From: Spirochaetota bacterium
GTDB taxonomy: Bacteria; Spirochaetota; B62-G9; DRHN01
DNA length: 40,559 bases
Direction of reading: 5' to 3'
Assembly (NCBI GenBank): GCA_030673105.1
Contig: DAOVJS010000004.1
Coordinates: 1 to 40,559 of the forward strand
Position numbers and translations under genes: made by a program. This document shows positions 1,975-12,644 of the stretch, one piece after another. A model generated the notes under the pieces. The model saw only the letters and a list, made by a program, of their open reading frames with translations. It did no database searches and had not been told where the DNA came from. How positions within the stretch are numbered: position 1 is the first letter of the stretch; the number at the start of each line of letters is the position of its first letter.

Positions 1975-2166
1975 TTTTACACTCAAAGTTCGCTACCATT
2001 TTAGTTTAAGTACCTATATAACAGTATATCACATTTTATATGGATTACAGTTGTAAAATATGGTAATATATCCGGGATGGTACCAGTGTCAGCAGCACCA
2101 CAATACTTTTAGTGTAACAGGATTTACAGCAGGAATAAATGGGTTATAAATAGTGAAGAAAAATAT

Positions 2167-2240
2167 TCGGGCTGGCCAGACTTGAACTGGCGACCCCATG
2201 TCCCCCAGACATGTGCGCTACCCAACTGCGCCACAGCCCG
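2167..2240 (-). tRNA. tRNA-Pro (anticodon GGG)
   Basis: The minus strand folds into a complete cloverleaf of 74 nt: a 7-bp acceptor stem CGGGCTG/CAGCCCG, GCGC D-stem, anticodon stem CATGT/ACATG around the loop CTGGGGG, and T-stem GCCAG/CTGGC with loop TTCAAGT. The anticodon is GGG, which reads proline CCC and CCU. The discriminator base is A. The 3' CCA is not encoded (ATA follows), so it must be added by a nucleotidyltransferase. Confidence 0.95.
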
Positions 2241-2248
2241 ATTTTACA

Positions 2249-2296
2249 ACAGGCAGGGAAACTTATCAATCTTATTAGAAGTTATTTCCTGCCTGT
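2249..2296. terminator. Inverted repeat, possible terminator between tRNA-Pro and the radical-SAM gene
   Basis: The arms ACAGGCAGG (2249-2257) and CCTGCCTGT (2288-2296) pair perfectly, and extend by three A-T pairs if one base is bulged. The loop is about 30 nt. On the plus strand the right arm is followed by GGTTTTT; on the minus strand the T-run is poor. The hairpin lies downstream of the radical-SAM gene and just upstream of the tRNA. It could end the radical-SAM transcript, but the long loop makes this uncertain. The rest of the 2241-2454 gap shows nothing recognisable. Confidence 0.4.
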
Positions 2297-2454
2297 GGTT
2301 TTTACCTAAATTATTAGCGTATTTTCATAAGTCTCTAATTGCCGAAAAGCAGCATCCACAGCTCATAGGCTTGTTTAAATAATATTTACTCTTTTCTGTA
2401 ATGTCAAGTTATCTCCAGTTCTGGCGCATCTATTTTTTCAATGAAATGTTATCA

Positions 2455-3420
2455 TCAGGGGATAATATCAAATTTATTTAAACATGCGCTATCAAGCCGT
2501 GTTATTAATTTCTTCGAAGTCATGTGGGAAATGTCAAAAACATCCTCCCACACAGTTGGATTTTCCATACACATATATATCACATTTTCATCCACATAGT
2601 TTTTAAGGTATGTTTTTATCTTTTGATACACCAATGTCCTGAGAGGTCTGAAATATCTCATTTTATTATCCGATCCCTTTATAAACTCCCCTCCTCTGTA
2701 TCCTGTAACCATCTTTTCCATTAAATGTTTCATTTCGGGGATAAAACGCAGCGTACCCATACTTATATAAACTATATTTTCAGGATTAACTTTTTTGAAT
2801 ATCAAATCGATTGTTTTCCTGTATTCAGCCTCCCAATTTTCATGGATTATTATGGGGTCGAAGTGAAACGCTAATTTATATCCTGACTCCTGCACTCTGA
2901 ATGCTGCGTCAATCCGGGCATTTATTTTAGGAGCATACCTCTCCTCTTTTTGCGCGGCATATATGCTGTTTACAGACCATGAAAGGATTGTGTTTTGGTG
3001 TTCTTTGATTTTCAATATCCCTTCAATATTTGTTGTTTTTGTTTTTAATTCGAGTACAGCTTTATTATTATTTGATATATAGGGAATTAATTCATTATAC
3101 AGAGGCAGGGCCTGCTCTAAAAGAAGGCTGTCGGTAAATTCTCCTGTTCCGAACCGCGTAATCCCTTCCCGTTTCTCTAAAAACTCTTCAAGCTCATCAA
3201 AGAGTTTCTTTCTATTTTTAAAAATTATCACAGGTTCATTTTTAAAGTAGTAGTTTAAAATGCAATAGGTGCACCCTAAACTACACCCATGAGCAAAATC
3301 TATTATCTGGTATCCGCAGCATACATAGTTTGGAGTTCCAGGACAGGGTTTTATGAACCTCCCCTTATTATTAACCTTTTTAATAACAGACTTTTCTCTC
3401 AAGTTCTTTAACCTTGACAT
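2455..3420 (-). CDS. Radical SAM protein of the spore photoproduct lyase (SplB-like) family
   Basis: The radical-SAM cluster motif CxxxCxxC is at C46, C50 and C53 (HGCSLGCTYC), and binds a 4Fe-4S cluster that cleaves S-adenosylmethionine. The preceding CPGTPNYVCCGYQIID is typical of the spore photoproduct lyase/COG1533 DNA-repair photolyase group, and the length (321 aa) fits. In Bacillus SplB a cysteine about 44 residues after the last cluster cysteine donates a hydrogen atom. The matching region here (about residues 89-101, RFGTGEFTDSLL) has none, and there is no Cys between C53 and the C-terminal third. It may therefore act on another substrate or use another donor. The ATG at 3420 is preceded by AAAGGG at good spacing. 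It is divergent from the 3461 gene, which starts 40 bp away. Confidence 0.8.
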   Translation of the reverse strand: MSRLKNLREKSVIKKVNNKGRFIKPCPGTPNYVCCGYQIIDFAHGCSLGCTYCILNYYFKNEPVIIFKNRKKLFDELEEFLEKREGITRFGTGEFTDSLLLEQALPLYNELIPYISNNNKAVLELKTKTTNIEGILKIKEHQNTILSWSVNSIYAAQKEERYAPKINARIDAAFRVQESGYKLAFHFDPIIIHENWEAEYRKTIDLIFKKVNPENIVYISMGTLRFIPEMKHLMEKMVTGYRGGEFIKGSDNKMRYFRPLRTLVYQKIKTYLKNYVDENVIYMCMENPTVWEDVFDISHMTSKKLITRLDSACLNKFDIIP

Positions 3421-3442
3421 AAGACCCTTTATAAAATATTTT
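3414..3442 (+). promoter_or_regulatory. Candidate sigma-70 promoter for the uptake cluster
   Basis: TTGACA (3414-3419) is a perfect -35 and lies 17 bp before TATTTT (3437-3442). It overlaps the start codon of the divergent radical-SAM gene and sits 18 bp upstream of the ATG at 3461. The -10 box is only a moderate match. Confidence 0.4.
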
Positions 3443-3460
3443 AAATAAGTCTTTTTGCAT

Positions 3461-4780
3461 ATGAAAAAATTGGAATCACACCAGATGTATTATACCGGCA
3501 TTTGTGAGGATGCCTTTTCTAAAAGAACAATAATTAGTGTAATAACCGGGTTAAACAAATTTCTCTCCGACACCATTGTCACAGTAACTGGGAATAAAAT
3601 CTCAACAAATACTTTTTCCGGGTCGGTTAACAGGGGGGGATATTTATTTTTAAGCGGCGCGGTGATAAAAGGTGTCTCACTTTTCGAACTGTACCGCAGT
3701 TATGAAGCTCAAAATGCTTTTTCAGATACAGTAAAAAGGCACCTGAGCATTTTTAAAGATGTAGTAAAAGCCTCAGAATTAATTAAAAACAAAATAGGCT
3801 TCTATCCTCCTCTTATTCTAAACAGCATATTTATTGATCCCGAAGATAAAAGTATTACTTTTCTTCCTGTTAAACTTGTTGATTTCCTCAATAAGTATCA
3901 GGATGTAGATAAACAGAATACCCTGTATTTTTGTATTGACAATAAAATAGATTTCCTGAACCCTGACGGAAGCGCTTTTACGCGTTCTGTGGGGAAACTA
4001 ATTTACCTTCATTTGCTGAAAGGTCAGGATACCCCTGGAGAGCCGGTATTTGATATTGCGGATTTTGTAAAGGATACTCCCCGGTTTCTTTCTGACACCA
4101 TGTGGGATGTGCTGCACGGGAAATATATCGAAATACAAAGACTTTTAGATGCGATTGATGATTCTCTTAATAAAGAGAACAGCAGCACACCTGCCGGGGT
4201 TTCCTTCTGGCGAAGCAGAGCTGTCATTACTTTTAAATACTCCTTAAGCGTGTTTTTTTCAAGAAGAAAGAAAATCATTTTTTTACTGTTAATAATTACC
4301 GGGATTTCAACATACCTTTTCCTGGACTTTTTATTAAAAAATAAAAATATCGATTATACAGCCGGACTTGATTCCGAAAAGGTCGTTGAGCTTTATTTCC
4401 ATGCGGTGGATAACCTGAAACTGGATATTATTGAATCAATTTTCTACAAAAGGGCCGGGAAAGAAATAAGAAATGAACTTAGCACACTGTACGTGATGAT
4501 AAAACTGCAAACAGTATACGGGAATATACCTTCAGGGCCTGAAGATATGGGCTCTATAGATGAAAAGTATCGGGATACTAAAGTATATGGTATCGAAGAT
4601 CTGGAAATTAAAAAAATAAAGGGCGGTGAAAACCCTGTTTTTTCTACGAAATATAAAAAAATTCTAAATACCGGTGGTAAAAATACAGTATACTCTATTG
4701 AAGAGACAATTTATCTTAAAAAGTATCATGACCACTGGTATATTGTTGAAAGCAACAGAAACTTAGTTCAGGAAAAATAA
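3461..4780 (+). CDS. Unrecognised membrane protein with a single transmembrane segment, head of the uptake cluster
   Basis: I do not recognise this protein. It has a soluble N-terminal part of about 270 residues, then basic residues (SRRKK), one hydrophobic segment at about 275-297, and a C-terminal part of about 140 residues. The N-terminal part has features reminiscent of a degenerate protein-kinase C-lobe (LILNSIFIDPEDKSITFLP resembles a catalytic loop plus DFG strand, without the catalytic Asp and DFG); this is inference only. The C-terminal part, from VVELYFHAVDNL to HDHWYIVESN, could be an NTF2-like or similar alpha+beta fold outside the membrane. The ATG at 3461 is used here; an in-frame TTG at 3455 is possible. 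The stop abuts the ATG of the binding-protein gene, so the two are very likely cotranscribed. Confidence 0.75.
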   Translation: MKKLESHQMYYTGICEDAFSKRTIISVITGLNKFLSDTIVTVTGNKISTNTFSGSVNRGGYLFLSGAVIKGVSLFELYRSYEAQNAFSDTVKRHLSIFKDVVKASELIKNKIGFYPPLILNSIFIDPEDKSITFLPVKLVDFLNKYQDVDKQNTLYFCIDNKIDFLNPDGSAFTRSVGKLIYLHLLKGQDTPGEPVFDIADFVKDTPRFLSDTMWDVLHGKYIEIQRLLDAIDDSLNKENSSTPAGVSFWRSRAVITFKYSLSVFFSRRKKIIFLLLIITGISTYLFLDFLLKNKNIDYTAGLDSEKVVELYFHAVDNLKLDIIESIFYKRAGKEIRNELSTLYVMIKLQTVYGNIPSGPEDMGSIDEKYRDTKVYGIEDLEIKKIKGGENPVFSTKYKKILNTGGKNTVYSIEETIYLKKYHDHWYIVESNRNLVQEK

Positions 4781-6058
4781 ATGAAAAAATACGGCCCTGT
4801 AATCCTAACTGTGATTCTATTGGTTTCCTGGGGATTTTCCAGACACAATGCTGAAGGAGGAATAAAAAGACGTTCGGTCGAATTAACATTCTGGCACAGT
4901 ATGAGTATTTACCAGGGTGATACTCTTGAACAACTCGTCGAGGAGTATAATAATAACAATGAAGACATACAGGTAAGATTAATCTTCCAGGGCCTATATG
5001 ACGACATGAAAATAAAATTAATAAATGCTGTAAAAACCGGAGATTTACCTGACGTCTCACAGGTTGCCATAGAATACCTCGATGTTTTTATCGATGATAA
5101 CAGAATAGAGCCGATTACAGATTATATTTCTGAAGATGATAAAAATGACATTCTGTCACAGTTCTGGAATGGAGTTACGAGACAAAGAGAAATCTATGCG
5201 TTCCCGTTTAATCATAGTGTGCAGGTTCTCTATTATAATAAGGACGCTTTTGAAAAAGCGGGTCTTGATCCAGACAAACCTCCGAAAACCTGGGAAGATG
5301 TTATTAAATATGGAAAAAAACTTACGAAAGATTTCGACGGAGACGGCACCATCGATCAATGGGGAATATTAGTCTCACTTGAAGGTGTCTTTGGATTTAC
5401 ACCGCTTATAAGGCAGGTGGGCGGGGAATTTCTGAATGATGACAGAACAAAAGCCCTTTTTAACAGTGAAGAAGGTGTCAGGGTTATGGAACTGGTTCAG
5501 AAAATGGCCTACGAGTATAAAATTATGCCCTCCAACTGGACACTTTTTGAAGGGACAAGTGCCTTTCTTCAGGGAAAAATCGCGATGGGGCCTATTACGT
5601 GCGCCGGTATCAAATTCGCTGAAGACAATCTTCCCTGGGAACTTGGTATTGCCCCTCTTCCTTATATTGAAAATAAATCCGTCCTGCTTGGCGGTGCCGG
5701 CCTTGTAATTTTCTCAAAGTCTTCACACAGAAGAAAGGCAGCTATGAACTTCATAAGCTGGCTTACAAACAAGGAAAATTCTATCAGGTGGCATGAAAAA
5801 ACAGGCTATCTACCTATCAGAAAATCTGCTATGGAGAGTTTTGAACTTCAAAGTTTTCACAGGCTGAATCCTAACTACAAAGTTCCTGTTGACCAGCTCT
5901 CCTATTCCAGGCCGCCGGATTTTACACCGTATCTGCCGCAAATCGATCAGATTGTACGCTATGCAATCGAAGATATTATGATAAACAGAAAGGATCCTCA
6001 AAAGACGCTTAATATAGCAGCGGAGAAAGTAAATAACCTCCTTAAAGAAGAGGAATGA
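4781..6058 (+). CDS. ABC transporter substrate-binding protein, sugar type (UgpB/MalE-like, family 1)
   Basis: This is an exported binding protein with an N-terminal hydrophobic signal sequence (about residues 4-20, no lipobox Cys). It is followed by the family-1 solute-binding start ELTFWHSM, then VEEYNNNNEDIQV and KLINAVKTGDLPDV, the classic first-lobe pattern. FDGDGTIDQWGI and the closing GGAGLVIFSKSSHRRKAAMN are also typical of this family (COG1653). It should capture a sugar, oligosaccharide or glycerol-3-phosphate-like ligand in the periplasm and pass it to the two permeases encoded downstream; the ligand cannot be read from sequence. The ATG follows the previous stop directly, and the stop overlaps an ATG of the barrel gene by 4 bp (ATGA), indicating translational coupling. 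Confidence 0.9.
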   Translation: MKKYGPVILTVILLVSWGFSRHNAEGGIKRRSVELTFWHSMSIYQGDTLEQLVEEYNNNNEDIQVRLIFQGLYDDMKIKLINAVKTGDLPDVSQVAIEYLDVFIDDNRIEPITDYISEDDKNDILSQFWNGVTRQREIYAFPFNHSVQVLYYNKDAFEKAGLDPDKPPKTWEDVIKYGKKLTKDFDGDGTIDQWGILVSLEGVFGFTPLIRQVGGEFLNDDRTKALFNSEEGVRVMELVQKMAYEYKIMPSNWTLFEGTSAFLQGKIAMGPITCAGIKFAEDNLPWELGIAPLPYIENKSVLLGGAGLVIFSKSSHRRKAAMNFISWLTNKENSIRWHEKTGYLPIRKSAMESFELQSFHRLNPNYKVPVDQLSYSRPPDFTPYLPQIDQIVRYAIEDIMINRKDPQKTLNIAAEKVNNLLKEEE

Positions 6059-6060
6059 AG

Positions 6061-7197
6061 ATGAAACGGAAGATCCTGCTGTTCACGTATGTGTTAACCG
6101 TATTCGCCATTTCCAGTATAATAGCTGACGAAGAAAATATATTTCTAAAAAAACTGATAATAGAGGGCAATTCTGTAACACGTGAAAGTTATGTTCGTAG
6201 TTTCATAACGCTAAAAGAGGGAAAAATTTATAAACTGGATACTATAATAGATGAAATAAATGTCAGCAGAGAAAATCTTGAACGGACAAATTTATTCTCA
6301 AGTATATTCTTTGATGATGAACTTGATGAAGAAAATAATCTAACCCTCACAATCAGGCTGAAAGAGAAGAACTACCTTTTATTCGGGCCTGATGGATATA
6401 TCACCTATCAAAATAATGATATCCATATAAATAGTATAATTTACATCTCACATGTAAATTTCCTTGGAAGGGCCGCAATTTTATCAGCCCGTATCCCTGT
6501 TTATGAAAATCTTGGTTTTATAATTCATTATCAGGATATGATGAGTAAAGTAAGGTACACGGTTGATTTTGAATATATCTATCCTTTAAATGAAGGAAAC
6601 AGCTGGCTATTATTTACACCCGGCGCGGCATACAGGGCAAAAGAGAACCTTTTTATCGGTGTTAATTTTAAACTTAACCGGAATGTTACCACCTCTGCCG
6701 TTTTTTCACCATACCTTGAAGCAGGTATTAAAAAAAGACACTCCTACAAAGTTAAAAAGTGGTATTTTACCTCGTTCTCTCCATATTATGGTTACAACTT
6801 TGATGGTTCTTCTTTGTATGGATTAGAATCAAACTTAAATCACAATTGGGATCTGCTTTTTAAAATAGTATATGCTGTTATGGTTGAGGTTAATATTCAG
6901 GGCGGAGAAGTACCTGACAATCTAATTCTAAAATCAAAAGTCAGGGGAACTCATTTTGATATTTACAGGGGTAACAAACAGGTATCAATTTCAAATGAAC
7001 TGCATATTCCTCTACCCTGGAATACTGATATCGTCATAGTACCTTTTCTGGACTCGGATCTTATCGGATATGACAGTCTTCAATTTTTAATGGGAGGAGG
7101 AATCGGGTTGCACTGGTTCAGCAGATACCAGGATCCTCTCATCGTGGAAGTTGCCTTTGGAAAAGGTGTTATGCTCAATTTCCAGAAAAGATTTTAA
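6061..7197 (+). CDS. Outer-membrane beta-barrel protein with one POTRA domain (BamA/TamA-like)
   Basis: A signal peptide (KRKILLFTYVLTVFAISSIIA) is followed by one POTRA domain at about residues 25-95: LKKLIIEGNSVTRESYVRSF, a helical segment, then ERTNLFSSIFF and a final strand LTLTIRLKEK. The remaining 280 or so residues are alternating amphipathic strands ending in QKRF, as expected for an outer-membrane barrel of the Omp85 superfamily. It is much smaller than BamA (five POTRAs), so it is probably not the essential assembly factor. Its overlap with the binding-protein gene suggests a role in the same uptake process, for example as an outer-membrane channel; this is inference. The ATG at 6061 has AGGA six bases upstream; the overlapping ATG at 6055 has almost no spacing. 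Confidence 0.8.
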   Translation: MKRKILLFTYVLTVFAISSIIADEENIFLKKLIIEGNSVTRESYVRSFITLKEGKIYKLDTIIDEINVSRENLERTNLFSSIFFDDELDEENNLTLTIRLKEKNYLLFGPDGYITYQNNDIHINSIIYISHVNFLGRAAILSARIPVYENLGFIIHYQDMMSKVRYTVDFEYIYPLNEGNSWLLFTPGAAYRAKENLFIGVNFKLNRNVTTSAVFSPYLEAGIKKRHSYKVKKWYFTSFSPYYGYNFDGSSLYGLESNLNHNWDLLFKIVYAVMVEVNIQGGEVPDNLILKSKVRGTHFDIYRGNKQVSISNELHIPLPWNTDIVIVPFLDSDLIGYDSLQFLMGGGIGLHWFSRYQDPLIVEVAFGKGVMLNFQKRF

Positions 7198-7220
7198 TTG
7201 TATAAAAATTGACATTCTGC

Positions 7221-7349
7221 CTAATTCAGGCTGTCCCTTAACATATACAATGGCCGTTTAGATAAGATTTCCTCTGTAATATGAGGCACTAAATGTAAAA
7301 TGTGTCGTATGGGACAGCCTAATTAGAGGTTTTGGGACAACCTCAATTA
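7221..7349. repeat. Three-copy GGGACA(R)CCT-AATTA repeat in the gap before the permease genes
   Basis: One unit is present three times: inverted at 7222-7237 (reads GGGACAGCCTGAATTA on the minus strand), direct at 7311-7325 (GGGACAGCCTAATTA) and direct at 7334-7349 (GGGACAACCTCAATTA). The first two form a 16-bp stem with one bulged base around a 73-nt loop. The third, with the preceding AATTAGAGGTT, forms a tight hairpin ending next to the start codon at 7351. This could be a small non-autonomous mobile element (MITE-like) with terminal inverted repeats, or a set of operator sites. No transposase gene is present. No Shine-Dalgarno is visible before the ATG at 7351. Confidence 0.7.
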
Positions 7350-7350
7350 T

Positions 7351-8310
7351 ATGAAAATACAGCATATATCACATAGATACTGGAAAAGTGATGTAAAAAG
7401 AGCATTTATCTATATATTACCCACCTATCTCATACTTTTTATTTTCATAATAATTCCCATTTTTTTCGCTTTTTATCTTAGCTTTAACAGGTGGAATCTT
7501 CTCGGAAACATAAAGTTTATAGGTCTGGCTAACTATAAAAAACTGTTCCAGATTGAGGAGTTCTGGAAAGCACTGATCAATACATTTTACTATACCTTTA
7601 TAACAGTCCCTGTCGGAATCGGCCTATCACTCATTCTCGCGCTCCTTCTGAACTCGAAGATCAAAGGCCTTATGTTCTACAGAGCCGCGTACTTTATGCC
7701 TGTAATGACTTCGGTTGTAGCAAGCGCTTTTATCTGGCAGTGGATTTTCCAGTCTCATAACGGAATTTTAAACCATATGTTAGGATTTGTGGGGGTTAAA
7801 CCGCTCTCATGGCTGAATGAACCTAAAGGCATCTTTAATGTGATTTTCAATTCTCTGGGTTTAAATATCCCCGGCTTTCTCGGCGGCCCGAGTGTAACCC
7901 TCGTTGCTATCAGCATAATGAGCATATGGAAAAATACTGGTTATTATATGATTATTTTTTTAGCCGGATTACAGAACATTCCGAAAACTTATTATGAAGC
8001 TGCTGAAATCGACGGTGCGGGTCCGGTGAGACGTTTTTTCTCAATTACCCTGCCCATCTTAAGTCCAACCACCTTTTTTGTCCTGATTATGTCTATTATC
8101 TTTTCGTTCCAGGTATTTGAGCAGGTAGCGGTAACAACAAAGGGCGGCCCTTTAAACGCATCTCTTGTGCTTGTGTACTTCATTTATGAAAGGGCGTTTA
8201 AATTCCTGGAAGTCGGCTTTGCATCTTCAGCGGCGTTTATCCTGTTTGCGATTGTCATTATACTCACCTATTTTCAGGTGAAAATACTTGGAAAGAGGGT
8301 GCATTATTGA
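7351..8310 (+). CDS. ABC transporter permease, MalF/UgpA type
   Basis: This is an inner-membrane permease of the binding-protein-dependent sugar transport family. It has about six hydrophobic segments, beginning with YILPTYLILFIFIIIPIFFA, and the cytoplasmic EAA loop at about residues 213-232 (YYEAAEIDGAGPVRRFFSIT) that docks on the ATPase. Its length of 319 aa is normal. It pairs with the next permease, overlapping it by 4 bp, and with the binding protein at 4781. No ATP-binding subunit is encoded nearby, so a shared MsmX/UgpC-type ATPase elsewhere is likely. The ATG at 7351 has no obvious ribosome-binding site because the repeat element runs up to it. Confidence 0.92.
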   Translation: MKIQHISHRYWKSDVKRAFIYILPTYLILFIFIIIPIFFAFYLSFNRWNLLGNIKFIGLANYKKLFQIEEFWKALINTFYYTFITVPVGIGLSLILALLLNSKIKGLMFYRAAYFMPVMTSVVASAFIWQWIFQSHNGILNHMLGFVGVKPLSWLNEPKGIFNVIFNSLGLNIPGFLGGPSVTLVAISIMSIWKNTGYYMIIFLAGLQNIPKTYYEAAEIDGAGPVRRFFSITLPILSPTTFFVLIMSIIFSFQVFEQVAVTTKGGPLNASLVLVYFIYERAFKFLEVGFASSAAFILFAIVIILTYFQVKILGKRVHY

Positions 8311-9146
8311 AAAAGCTGTCAACCAGGACGTTTATAAAACATACCCTTCTTCATATAATTTTAATCTCCGGAGTTATCATAATGATATTCCCTTTTTTAT
8401 GGGGGATATCCACATCACTCAAAGATATGAGGGAAGTGCTCTCAAACCCCTTTAGTATAATACCCAGGCAGATAACCTTTATCAATTACAAAAATGTGGT
8501 TAAATCAATTCCCATTGTAAGGTTTTTTATTAACAGCCTTATAGTTTCGATTACGATCACAGCGAGCCAGCTGATTACGTGTTCTATCTCAGCGTATGCC
8601 TTTTCACGCTTAAAATTTCCTTTCAGGGATGGTCTGTTCTACATTCTCCTGGGTACCATGATGATCCCCCAGCACGTAATCATGATACCGGTTTATTTAA
8701 TATTGAACTTTTTCCGGCTTATTGACACCTATGCCGCAATGATCGTTCCTTTTATCTCAAGTGCCTTTGGGACATTTCTCCTGAGGCAATTTTTCCTGAC
8801 AGTTCCAAAGGAGCTTGAAGAGGCAGCGACACTTGACGGATGCGGTCACCTTCGTTTTCTTTTCAGGATAATGATCCCGCTTGCTCGACCAATTCTTGCT
8901 ACCCTTGCGATTTTCACCTTTATGTGGAGCTGGAACAACTACCTCTGGCCCCTTATTGTTACAAACAGGATTGAAATTCGAACACTTCAGTACGGACTTG
9001 CCATGTTTAAAGAAGAAGGCGGTTTGAACTGGGGACAGCTTATGGCCGGCACCACAATAGCAACTATCCCTATACTGATTCTCTTTTTTATTGCCCAGAA
9101 ACAATTCATTAAAGGAATAACTCTTACCGGATTGAAAGAGGGCTGA
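8307..9146 (+). CDS. ABC transporter permease, MalG/UgpE type
   Basis: This is the second inner-membrane permease of the importer. It has about six hydrophobic segments and the EAA motif EEAATLDGCGHLRFLFRI at about residues 172-189. The C-terminus (QKQFIKGITLTGLKEG) is the classic MalG/UgpE ending (FIKGLTxGAVKG-like). It starts with TTG at 8307, overlapping the upstream stop (TTGA), with GAGGGTG seven or so bases before it; no earlier ATG is available without a long overlap. The length of 279 aa is standard. It forms a heterodimer with the 7351 product, and the substrate is unknown. Confidence 0.92.
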   Translation: MKKLSTRTFIKHTLLHIILISGVIIMIFPFLWGISTSLKDMREVLSNPFSIIPRQITFINYKNVVKSIPIVRFFINSLIVSITITASQLITCSISAYAFSRLKFPFRDGLFYILLGTMMIPQHVIMIPVYLILNFFRLIDTYAAMIVPFISSAFGTFLLRQFFLTVPKELEEAATLDGCGHLRFLFRIMIPLARPILATLAIFTFMWSWNNYLWPLIVTNRIEIRTLQYGLAMFKEEGGLNWGQLMAGTTIATIPILILFFIAQKQFIKGITLTGLKEG

Positions 9147-9266
9147 TGGTTTAGCGGTACCGGCATTATATACCTGATTTTGTCAGATTCAAAGCAATTT
9201 TTCAATTCTCCGGGTGCCGAAAAACAGGAGGAACAGCTATAATCTAATTGATTTGTACCCTTAATG

Positions 9267-9286
9267 TGTTATGTTATGTTATGTAA
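9267..9286 (+). repeat. Short tandem pentamer TGTTA upstream of the OmpA-domain gene
   Basis: Three TGTTA units are followed by TGTAA, between 40 and 60 bp before the ATG at 9327. A TATAAT box lies just upstream at 9238-9243, but with a poor -35. Such short repeats can vary in copy number, but three units is little. Confidence 0.5.
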
Positions 9287-9326
9287 CTACTTCCTTATAA
9301 ATGAAAAAAGATGTAGAAAGAAAAAC

Positions 9327-10529
9327 ATGAAAAAAATCATAATTCTTATACTTTTTCTAATGGCCTGCTTTAATACATACGCCGGAGAGCTCTTTCAGTT
9401 TAATTATAAACTCGGGCAAAGGTTTCACGTTGAGGGCTATGTTGATGAGGACTTATATAAAAATGATATCCTTGTAAAGAGTGTAAGACTGAAAAATGTT
9501 GGTGATCTTTATGTGACAAAAATATTAGGAAATAAGGCATTCCACGAGGGTACTTTTAGATATTATACGGCTGAAGGCATTTCAGGCGAATTTGTCAAAA
9601 GAGAGGAATATCCGACCAAATTTTTCAGAGACATCCACGGTAATTATGAAATTAAGGACATTTATTTCATGCCTGTGGTAAGAGGGGTACCCACATTTCC
9701 CGACACACCTCTGGAAGTTGGAGACCAGTGGTCCTCCAGGGCGTATGAAGCTCATGATTTCCGGGAACTGTATGGTATTTCCAAACCTGTCATGCTTCCC
9801 GCTGCTGTTTCCTATCAATATCTTGGCAACACAGAGATTGATGGTGAAAAAATTGCTAAAATATCAATAAACTATGTGATAAACTATACACTGCAATATC
9901 AATATGGGACCAATTTCGAAACTCCTCTGCCCTACCGCATCATCGGCTATTTTAACCAGGTCTATCTCTGGAATCTGGATAGAGGGTTACCCCATTCATA
10001 TAAAGAAAATTTTGATTATGTATTTATCATGTCGAATGGTGAAACTATTGAGTATTCAGGTAAATCACGGGCAGTCCTGACAGTAACAGAGGATACCGGT
10101 AAAGATCAACTTATCATTAAAAATATCATGAATAAACTGCAGGAAAACATTCCCTCTGTTGAAGTGACGAGCACCGATCAGGGAATCGTAATAAATATCG
10201 GAGAAATACTATTCAGGTTTGATTCTGATGAGTTGACAGAGGGCGCAGAGGCAGACCTGGCAAACATCGTTGAAGTCTTAAAAGATTTCCCCAACAGGAG
10301 GATACGGGTTGTGGGTCACACGGACAGCGCAGGACCTGAAGACTACAACCTGTCGCTTTCACTGAGGAGGGCCAAAAGAACGGTTTATGAACTAAAAAAA
10401 ATATATCCCGGCCTCTCAGGAAGAACCACCTATCTTGGAATGGGAGAGAGTAAGCCGATAGCAAATAATGAAACAGAAGCAGGGAGAAGGAAAAACAGGA
10501 GAGTAGAAATCATTATCCTCAATGAATGA
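9327..10529 (+). CDS. OmpA-family envelope protein with C-terminal peptidoglycan-binding domain
   Basis: A signal sequence (MKKIIILILFLMACFNTYA) precedes about 260 residues of unrecognised, strand-rich sequence and a C-terminal OmpA-like domain at about residues 285-400. That domain shows IGEILFRFDSDELTEGAEA, the core VVGHTDSAGPEDYNLSLSLR, and the closing GRRKNRRVEI. It should bind peptidoglycan non-covalently, tethering the envelope. The signal could be cut by signal peptidase I after TYA, or the LMAC may be a lipobox. The in-frame ATG at 9264 adds a non-signal tail, and the ATG at 9327 preceded by AGAAAGAA is preferred. It lies 180 bp after the permeases and is convergent with pta only 18 bp away. 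Confidence 0.88.
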   Translation: MKKIIILILFLMACFNTYAGELFQFNYKLGQRFHVEGYVDEDLYKNDILVKSVRLKNVGDLYVTKILGNKAFHEGTFRYYTAEGISGEFVKREEYPTKFFRDIHGNYEIKDIYFMPVVRGVPTFPDTPLEVGDQWSSRAYEAHDFRELYGISKPVMLPAAVSYQYLGNTEIDGEKIAKISINYVINYTLQYQYGTNFETPLPYRIIGYFNQVYLWNLDRGLPHSYKENFDYVFIMSNGETIEYSGKSRAVLTVTEDTGKDQLIIKNIMNKLQENIPSVEVTSTDQGIVINIGEILFRFDSDELTEGAEADLANIVEVLKDFPNRRIRVVGHTDSAGPEDYNLSLSLRRAKRTVYELKKIYPGLSGRTTYLGMGESKPIANNETEAGRRKNRRVEIIILNE

Positions 10530-10547
10530 CCGGGATAGTATACTAAT

Positions 10548-12644
10548 TCACGACTGCTGGGCCTGTATCGCGGTAACGGCGATAGTGTAGACAATATCCT
10601 TTACCAGAGCTCCCCTGCTTAGATCATTTGCGGGTTTATTAAGACCCTGAACAACAGGACCGATTGCCAGAACCTGAGCCGCCCTCTGTACAGCCTTATA
10701 GGCTGTGTTGCCTGCATTTAAGTCCGGAAATATATACACGGATGCTTTCCCAGCTACTTCACTGTCCTGCAGTTTTACTTTTGCCACTTCTTCCGAAATC
10801 GCGGCGTCATACTGTATGGGTCCTTCTATTGGCAGATCAGGCCTCTTCTGTTTGGCAATCTTCGTGGCTTCTCTCACCTTATCTACTTCTTTTCCTTTAC
10901 CGGATTCACCGGTTGAGTATGAAAGCATGGCAATAAATGGATCTATTCCAAACAATCTGGCTGTGTCCGAGCTGGTTATCGCTATATCAGCAAGCTGTTC
11001 AGGGTTGGGATCTTCAACAAGGGCACAGTCACCGTAAACTAAAACTTTATCAGGCATGCACATAAAGAAAACACTGGACGCGAGTAATACTTTTTTCTTA
11101 GTCTTTATTATCCTTAAAACAGGTCGAAGTGTATTAGCCGTAGAGTGTACTGCGCCTGACACAAAGCCATCGGCATGCCCCTTGCGGACCATCATCACTC
11201 CGAAATTAATTGGATCGAGCATCAGGTCTCTGGCTATTTCTTTTGTTTCACCTTTATGCTTTCTCAATTGATAGTATGTCTCGGCATAATCCTCTAATAA
11301 ATCTATACTATCTTTTGAGGGGTCTATGATATTTGCGCCTTCGAGATGTACGCCCATATTTTTACTCATTTCAACAATTTTGTCCTTATCTCCAAGCAGT
11401 GTGATATCGCACGTGCCCCTGTGAAGTATTTCAGAAGCAGCTCTTATTATCCGCTCTTCAGTACCTTCCGGCAGGACAATATGTTTTTTGTCAGCCTTTG
11501 CCATCTCCAGTATGCGGTATTGAAACATCATGGGTGTTGTTATATCTGTCACGACATAACCCAGCCGGCTGTATATTTCGCTCACATCAACATAATTTTC
11601 AATCAGCTGGTTTACTAAATCAATTTTTTCAATATCATCCTGCTTTAGCTCTCCTTTTATAGTATTTACTTTTAGTGCCGTATCGTAGGTATCCTCACTT
11701 ACGGATAGTATTGTCAGGCCGGGGTCGGTTATTCCTGCCATTAACTTTTTTACATTTTCTCCAGGAATTAGACCGCCTGTCAAAATGATACCGGAATACT
11801 TAGGATAGCATATTGATTTTTGAGCTATCATGACAGTAAAAATTAAATCGACCCTGTCCCCCGGCGTGATTAACAGATACCCATCCTGATCCTTTATGTG
11901 CTCAAGAACGTTTTCAGGTGACATGGCAAGGACCTTTACATCAGTAACCACCTTAGACATATCATCTCCTCTGTAGATGATTTTTGAATTCAGCTTCTCA
12001 GCAACCTCTTTCAACCGCGGCCCTGAGAGTACCGGGTCGAACCTCACTACTCCAAAAAGTGGTATCTGTTTTCTTTCAAGTAATTTTTTTATTTTTTTTG
12101 TGTCTTCCTCATAGTTTTGTGATTCCAGCCTGTTTACCACGACACCAAGAAACTGGCAGCCCATCTCTCTAATAGATTCCGTAACCTCAGTTATGGTCTG
12201 AACAATTTCATCTATTGATTTTCCGGACCCTTTAGCTACTAAAAGGACCGGGGCTCCAAGGTTTTTTGCAAGCTCAGCATTAAGATCGAATTCCAGCACC
12301 GATATTATACTGGTGTAATCAGTACCTTCAATAACAACAACATCCTTACCTGCGGCAAGCCTCTCAAAGGAGTTGAATATTTTTTCAAATAACTCTTCTT
12401 TATCTTCTTGAGCTTCAGTCCAGGATGCCGGATTAATGTCACGAAGATCATCAGTTAATTTAAAAATCTCTTTGGTTAATATCGCGTCTTCATCAACAAC
12501 GCTTCCAGGCCTATATCTCTGGCCTATAGGCTTCATATAACCTACGTTAGGTACAATCCCCTGAAGTGCATTGATTAAACCTATAGTTACCAGGCTCTTC
12601 CCGCTTCTCTGTTCAGTTGAAGCAATAAAGATCTTTTTTTCCAT
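10548..12644 (-). CDS. pta: Phosphate acetyltransferase (long form)
   Basis: This enzyme interconverts acetyl-CoA and acetyl phosphate, linking central carbon flow to acetate and ATP formation with acetate kinase (not in this window). At 698 aa it matches the long Pta of E. coli. An N-terminal BioD-like P-loop domain (IASTEQRSGKSLVT, residues about 7-20) is followed by a DRTGG-type middle domain (about 220-340) and the C-terminal PTA catalytic domain (from about 370). The latter contains LPEGTEERIIRAA, GFVSGAVHSTANTLRP and FPDLNAGNTAYKAVQR. It starts at an ATG with GGGATAGGG upstream. It is divergent from glmM, with a 135-bp shared intergenic region, and is monocistronic by context. Confidence 0.96.
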   Translation of the reverse strand: MEKKIFIASTEQRSGKSLVTIGLINALQGIVPNVGYMKPIGQRYRPGSVVDEDAILTKEIFKLTDDLRDINPASWTEAQEDKEELFEKIFNSFERLAAGKDVVVIEGTDYTSIISVLEFDLNAELAKNLGAPVLLVAKGSGKSIDEIVQTITEVTESIREMGCQFLGVVVNRLESQNYEEDTKKIKKLLERKQIPLFGVVRFDPVLSGPRLKEVAEKLNSKIIYRGDDMSKVVTDVKVLAMSPENVLEHIKDQDGYLLITPGDRVDLIFTVMIAQKSICYPKYSGIILTGGLIPGENVKKLMAGITDPGLTILSVSEDTYDTALKVNTIKGELKQDDIEKIDLVNQLIENYVDVSEIYSRLGYVVTDITTPMMFQYRILEMAKADKKHIVLPEGTEERIIRAASEILHRGTCDITLLGDKDKIVEMSKNMGVHLEGANIIDPSKDSIDLLEDYAETYYQLRKHKGETKEIARDLMLDPINFGVMMVRKGHADGFVSGAVHSTANTLRPVLRIIKTKKKVLLASSVFFMCMPDKVLVYGDCALVEDPNPEQLADIAITSSDTARLFGIDPFIAMLSYSTGESGKGKEVDKVREATKIAKQKRPDLPIEGPIQYDAAISEEVAKVKLQDSEVAGKASVYIFPDLNAGNTAYKAVQRAAQVLAIGPVVQGLNKPANDLSRGALVKDIVYTIAVTAIQAQQS

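Follow-up and report, generated by a model that had tools for sequence, protein, structure and literature searches.

The 40,559-nt window analysed here is a contig (C85; GenBank DAOVJS010000004.1) from the draft genome of a Spirochaetota bacterium (GCA_030673105.1; 2.32 Mb in 240 contigs, 60.9% complete). On its plus strand, the gene set of a CUT1-type ATP-binding cassette (ABC) importer, consisting of a solute-binding protein (SBP) and two permeases, is split by the gene for a short outer-membrane barrel protein, a putative BamA-like Omp85 paralogue with a single POTRA domain. The same arrangement was found in the eight genomes sampled from the order, and because it recurs in all of them we consider it beyond chance. 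The UgpB-like SBP gene (4781..6058; Pfam SBP_bac_8, E=8.7e-43) overlaps the barrel gene (6055..7197; POTRA, E=9.9e-6, the sole Pfam domain over the cut-off) by 4 bp. Upstream, with 0 bp between, it is abutted by the gene for a protein with one transmembrane segment (the one-TM protein; 3455..4780, from a TTG start with an in-frame ATG at 3461). Both the overlap and the abutment, as claimed in the original prediction, were reproduced from the coordinates of the open reading frames (ORFs). The barrel protein comprises 380 aa if translated from the ATG at 6055, and 378 aa from the ATG at 6061. A gap of 153 bp precedes the UgpA/MalF-like permease gene PERM1 (7351..8310; BPD_transp_1, E=4.5e-14), whereas all other cluster genes abut or overlap, including the UgpE/MalG-like PERM2 (8307..9146; BPD_transp_1, E=3.7e-19).

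With an SBP and two permeases of the family, the gene set has the make-up of a CUT1 importer. It resembles the UgpB/UgpA/UgpE glycerol-3-phosphate importer in that its best NCBIfam matches are Ugp proteins, as is the best solved relative of the SBP (UgpB 4aq4, E=4.7e-46). It departs from that system in that all three proteins stay below the respective equivalog cut-offs—the SBP with 176.4 bits against 411 for UgpB, PERM1 with 144 bits (E 7.9e-42) against 335 for UgpA (NF007852) and PERM2 with 177 bits (E 5.2e-52) against 297 for UgpE (NF008210)—and in that two residues of the UgpB site, the Arg and one Trp, are not conserved, as judged by eye. The roles of the phosphate-binding and other site residues of UgpB were taken from an excerpt of PMC12718374. 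In an alignment read by eye, the SBP keeps two Tyr and one Ser of the four phosphate-binding residues, has Thr or Cys in place of the fourth, also a Ser, and retains one of the two binding-site Trp. No lipobox was seen by eye in the window SBP. As to the ligand, our guess is either a small saccharide or an organophosphate, for instance a glycerol phosphate ester. Neither the ORF list nor Pfam revealed an ATPase gene within 3455..9146, in agreement with the original prediction, and MalK-type domains are encoded elsewhere, in 8/8 genomes of the order (a single one in G006, which is 83% complete). A shared MalK-type ATPase is therefore plausible.

The order sample covered two families and seven genera, with the window genome (G000) as one of the eight. 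Barrel homologues are present in 8/8 genomes (35-57% identical; the G002 copy was found as two pieces), as are SBP orthologues (71-82% identical; in a separate comparison, the window SBP was 69-82% identical to the other seven). Among named loci, the closest SBPs come from metagenome-assembled genomes labelled ‘Spirochaetes bacterium’, at 80% (L015) and 72% (L016) identity to the window protein. Six relatives encode PERM2 orthologues that are 82-89% identical over nearly their full length, with other homologues at or below 41%, and an 80-residue PERM2 piece at a contig end in G006 is 73% identical. The barrel gene follows the SBP gene in 8/8 genomes, at a distance of -4 bp in six of them and of 0 and +3 bp in the remaining two. 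PERM1 follows the barrel gene in 7/7 genomes whose contig reaches that far; in G002, the contig stops just past the barrel gene, and PERM2 lies on a different contig. The order of PERM1 and PERM2 is kept in the same seven genomes, in G006 by way of the 80-residue piece. Barrel and PERM1 genes are 3, 3, 3, 6 and 15 bp apart in relatives and overlap by about one base in L113, provided that PERM1 starts there at the located methionine. The original prediction had put forward conserved gene order as its test, and the barrel gene indeed lies near the importer in all eight genomes.

Other members of the neighbourhood come and go. The one-TM gene is intact in five of the eight genomes, a remnant in G002, and was not found in G003 and G004. 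An OmpA-type gene (9264..10529, plus strand; PF00691, E 5.2e-17), whose product has a presumed peptidoglycan-binding C-terminal domain, follows PERM2 in four of six genomes where this position is visible (the window, L111, L114 and L115; not L113 or L117). Put as losses, 3/8 genomes lack an intact one-TM gene and 2/6 lack the OmpA gene, but 0/8 lack the barrel gene.

In 8/8 genomes, the SBP gene immediately precedes that of the POTRA barrel, which is also the layout of a two-partner-secretion-like pair, in which the barrel would export the SBP or display it on the surface. We regard this as highly improbable. The POTRA is of the PF07244 type, and none of the eight barrel homologues matches POTRA_2 (PF08479) or ShlB (PF03865) at E<=1; moreover, the SBP is an ordinary CUT1 protein, and the permeases encoded with it require a periplasmic SBP.

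What, then, is the barrel protein? Judged by eye, it starts with a signal peptide. PF07244 matches 8/8 homologues (best E 8.8e-10), in one stretch in the window copy, while the Omp85 barrel domain PF01103 matches 0/8 at E<=1 and phmmer against solved structures returned 0 matches for the window protein. In hhalign comparisons with 11 spirochaete BamA proteins, the barrel profile aligned best to their last POTRA together with the first strands (E 4.8e-8) and second-best to the first POTRA (3.3e-6). An RG(T/Y) motif, which we take to be the Omp85 L6 motif, is located 84 residues before the C-terminus in 8/8 barrels (L112 has an extra copy at 104), compared with at least 92 residues from the end in 20 other Omp85 proteins. 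The C-terminal part matched the C-termini of 20 spirochaete Omp85 proteins with an hhalign probability of 78% (E 1.7e-5) in a single comparison. An AF2 model computed from three rows had a mean pLDDT of 45, with residues 245-380 below 50 and confidence in the POTRA alone; when this poor model was used as a Foldseek query, the 50 listed of 526 PDB matches were BamA/TamA structures, one being titled ‘membrane complex’, at TM-scores of 0.26-0.33. Past residue 105, we counted 16 alternation peaks—some of them close together or inside the L6 stretch—which is compatible with a compact 16-strand barrel. A short, BamA-like paralogue within Omp85 is the interpretation of the protein that best suits these comparisons.

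The possibility that it is the organism’s own BamA was rejected, as six of the eight genomes carry a separate BamA, in frames of 831-856 aa; the two in which it was not found, G000 and G007, are 61% and 88% complete. The original prediction had deemed the barrel too small for BamA: that it is not BamA was borne out, but its size need not preclude a complete Omp85 barrel, given the ~270 residues that follow the POTRA and the 16 alternation peaks. Omp85 proteins with one to three POTRA domains and an Omp85 barrel, additional to BamA, are described as a BamA-like subfamily (Heinz & Lithgow 2014; PMC4104836, in excerpt). The window protein, with a separate BamA found in 6/8 genomes, is like them in its single POTRA and unlike them in being too diverged for PF01103 and encoded inside a CUT1 importer set.

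In the excerpt of PMC4104836, the role expected of such one-to-three-POTRA proteins, always found beside a BamA, is assembly. On this account, our barrel would be a BamA-like assembly or translocation factor (like TamA, Sam50 or PlpD) for a surface or outer-membrane protein needed together with the importer, and would carry no ligand itself. The best alignment, which pairs the protein with BamA’s last POTRA and the start of its barrel, argues for such a role, as does the finding that the POTRA and the region from L6 to the end are conserved better than the first strands (median pairwise identity: POTRA, 56%; residues 108-290, 30%; residues 291-380, 44%). Conservation of the POTRA would be expected if it contacts a conserved periplasmic partner, and equally so under an assembly role. 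Speaking against assembly, Pfam recognised no client barrel among the neighbouring window genes, a result that also counts in favour of a partnership with the importer, and the barrel gene is located inside the importer genes, between those for the SBP and the permeases. We see an assembly factor as a real, if somewhat doubtful, possibility.

Across the phylum, a sample of 392 genomes was searched for the barrel, SBP and one-TM proteins, at cut-offs of E<=1e-3 over the full length for the barrel and E<=1e-80 for the SBP. The barrel profile, built from eight sequences, matched in 138/392 genomes and over its full length in eight. In the other 130 genomes, matches were confined to positions 7-191 of the 378-position model, corresponding to the POTRA and first strands, and fell mostly within BamA-sized frames of at least 800 aa. 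A general spirochaete gene is thereby ruled out. The SBP was found in the same 8/392 genomes as the full-length barrel. As their co-occurrence is restricted to one clade, it perhaps goes back to a single evolutionary event.

A distribution of this kind raises the question of whether a single insertion in the ancestor of the order brought in the barrel gene, which has since been retained by synteny, with a role unrelated to the importer. The carriers do form a single clade, and the flanks are conserved as well, with a radical SAM gene (rSAM) upstream in 7/7 visible genomes and PGM downstream in five of those with that side visible. Conservation is thus partly synteny, since the carriers are one clade with common flanks. 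Yet overlapping or near-zero gene distances are maintained across two families and seven genera, while one-TM, OmpA and Pta/Ack genes vary in presence, and mere retention strikes us as unlikely. Median pairwise identities in percent, with n as the number of genomes in which a gene was found, are 70 for the SBP (n=8), 76 for PERM1 (7), 84 for PERM2 (6), 40 for the barrel (8), 32 for the one-TM protein (5) and 63 for OmpA (4), next to 56 for rSAM (7) and 55 for PGM (5) among the neighbours.

A link between Omp85 paralogues and ABC transporters recurs in spirochaetes; what appears new here is the type of transporter, an importer. In Borrelia, the 346-aa Omp85 paralogue BBJ25 is encoded in a cluster with a MacB/LolCDE-like transporter and LolA-like and TPR proteins, for which export has been proposed (PMC13078400, in excerpt, where no POTRA is mentioned for BBJ25). 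The window is alike in that a spirochaete Omp85 paralogue is encoded with an ABC transporter, and unlike in that the latter is a type-I importer with an SBP. MacB-like, LolA-like or TPR neighbours of the BBJ25 type are absent, the window neighbours being CUT1 importer, radical SAM and OmpA-type genes. We also examined five short partial barrel matches (frames of 396-483 aa; partial matches in frames of 588, 617, 623 and 674 aa lie outside this set): none is near a CUT1 importer, and two (L252 and L256) are near ABC-2-type transporter genes. At L252 (4826-7865), in another spirochaete, genes for an ABC ATPase, an ABC-2 permease and a one-POTRA protein form a tight row, possibly encoding a trans-envelope exporter. 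Within the order, second short Omp85 proteins that match PF01103 were observed at L162 (G001:C55; frame of 398 aa) and L163 (G005:C406; 383 aa) and are perhaps BBJ25-like.

Specific outer-membrane channels encoded with a CUT1 importer are familiar from LamB with maltose and CymA with cyclodextrin. Those channels are porins without a POTRA, unlike the window barrel, which looks like an Omp85 protein. Among the titles and openings of abstracts listed in a literature search, none pairs an Omp85 protein with a sugar importer.

The fixed adjacency of SBP and barrel and of barrel and PERM1, the occurrence of both in the same 8/392 genomes and the fact that the barrel is never lost lead us to favour, tentatively, the interpretation that the barrel is an outer-membrane partner of the importer—a conduit or docking port—and that the proteins are made together. 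The spirochaete pairings of Omp85 and ABC transporter proteins, namely BBJ25 and the L252 row, lend further backing. The barrel would give the ligand passage across the outer membrane, and its POTRA would face the periplasm, where it would dock or position the SBP. The SBP would then pass the ligand to the permeases, driven by a shared MalK-type ATPase encoded elsewhere. A more specific and more doubtful version sees the Omp85/BamA-type barrel as a solute entry port whose POTRA docks the SBP, with uptake spanning the envelope and the membrane pseudokinase-like protein of the cluster possibly monitoring it. Overall, we judge an outer-membrane partner to be hardly more likely than a BamA-like assembly factor, with both ahead of a gene merely retained by synteny.

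Several observations weigh against an outer-membrane partner. The ABC-linked relatives indicate export rather than import, and all carriers belong to one clade. The median identity of the barrel, at 40%, is lower than that of rSAM (56%) and PGM (55%), neighbours outside the cluster. In the alignment read by eye, the UgpB Arg is without an aligned equivalent in the SBP and the Glu is shifted by one. To our knowledge, no Omp85 protein has small-solute uptake as its physiological role. The authors who defined the BamA-like subfamily expect assembly factors (PMC4104836, in excerpt), and Anabaena Omp85 mutants are discussed, in an excerpt of PMC9705863, as affecting porin insertion. Finally, the distribution scan for the barrel was conducted within the phylum, and 80 loci around SBP relatives were searched besides. 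The barrel profile matched none of the 78 of these loci that lie outside the order and are mostly Gram-positive, but it has little power to detect other Omp85 proteins, finding 3/20 Omp85 controls at E<=10, so this negative covers close barrel relatives only. As a control over the same 80 loci, the two from the order matched the barrel profile, and a permease match was found in 77/80.

Little is understood of how spirochaetes bring nutrients across their outer membrane, and the known work of Omp85 proteins is to move or assemble proteins, not to supply importers. That a one-POTRA Omp85-type protein and a CUT1 importer are consistently encoded together provides a testable case, be it of an Omp85 protein with a transport role or of an assembly factor regulated with nutrient uptake. 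If true, the solute port would be the first Omp85 member with a nutrient-uptake role that we know of.

The SBP has paralogues that are 40-43% identical in its own genome and in G002-G007, not in G001, as well as a further group at ~31%. That these paralogues have an adjacent permease of their own was rejected: phmmer with the window permeases (E<=1e-5) found one at 0/11 loci (L229-L239, from G000 and G002-G007; nine of the 40-43% group and two of the ~31% group), several of which are on short contigs, with some SBP genes close to a contig end. These lone paralogous SBPs may feed the same permease.

The one-TM protein, unrecognised in the original prediction, could be placed in a family of spirochaete membrane proteins whose kinase-like domain is devoid of catalytic residues. 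It matches no Pfam family, and phmmer against solved structures gave 0 matches. A low-confidence structure model (mean pLDDT 42) places the transmembrane segment at about 270-296, and the C-terminal domain is presumed to be periplasmic. Family members were matched in 94/392 genomes of the phylum, six of them in the order (including the G002 remnant); outside the order, the matches run mostly through the transmembrane segment and C-terminal part. The N-terminal half of the window protein is the part that matches the family with its degenerate kinase-like domain. A 20-row family profile (five rows from the order and 15 from outside) hit Ser/Thr kinases (4eqm ‘Protein kinase’, E 5.6e-9; PknB, 2.7e-8), while the five order rows alone yielded chance-level matches only and no kinase link; order and outside rows align to each other in hhalign over 414 columns (E 1.4e-38). 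By eye, the aligned positions of the HRD Asp and DFG Asp are occupied by other residues, so the protein lacks the catalytic signature of a kinase. Because the wide profile matches kinases, the catalytic positions are replaced and the order rows align with the outside rows, we call the protein pseudokinase-like.

Profile searches of 20 one-TM loci outside the order detected no CUT1 SBP or permease. The idea that the family is importer-free outside the order was nevertheless rejected, as L203 has a family gene 56 bp away from an importer of the branched-chain-amino-acid type, which comes with a binding protein of its own. At seven of the 20 outside loci (L197, L200, L201, L205, L210, L213 and L214), hflK/hflC-like genes adjoin the one-TM gene by eye; Band_7 was confirmed in all five hflK/hflC-like proteins tested, which come from four of the seven loci.

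Most of the gap between barrel and PERM1 genes in the window is taken up by a dispersed structured repeat of ~129 bp (7222..7350). It occurs at 40 places in its own genome, this one included, at 73-100% identity, and when aligned with nine further copies has two predicted hairpins, with a fold of -39.7 kcal/mol. The six relatives in which the gap is visible have at most 15 bp there and hence no room for the repeat. An Rfam scan of 2000-11000 returned 0 matches. A consensus scan gave a weak result: it counted 32 promoter-like sites where 19.1 were expected and 10 terminator-like sites where 4.6 were expected, with no terminator-like site on the plus strand in the gap. The repeat may alter permease expression in the window genome.

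Two further genes upstream of the cluster are encoded on the minus strand. The radical SAM gene found beside the cluster in 7/7 visible genomes corresponds here to 2455-3420 and encodes a spore-photoproduct-lyase-like protein of 321 aa, which scores far below the equivalog cut-offs. The other gene, at 85-1986, encodes a 633-aa protein with about five ASH/HYDIN-like Ig repeats and, by eye, a lipobox-like start.

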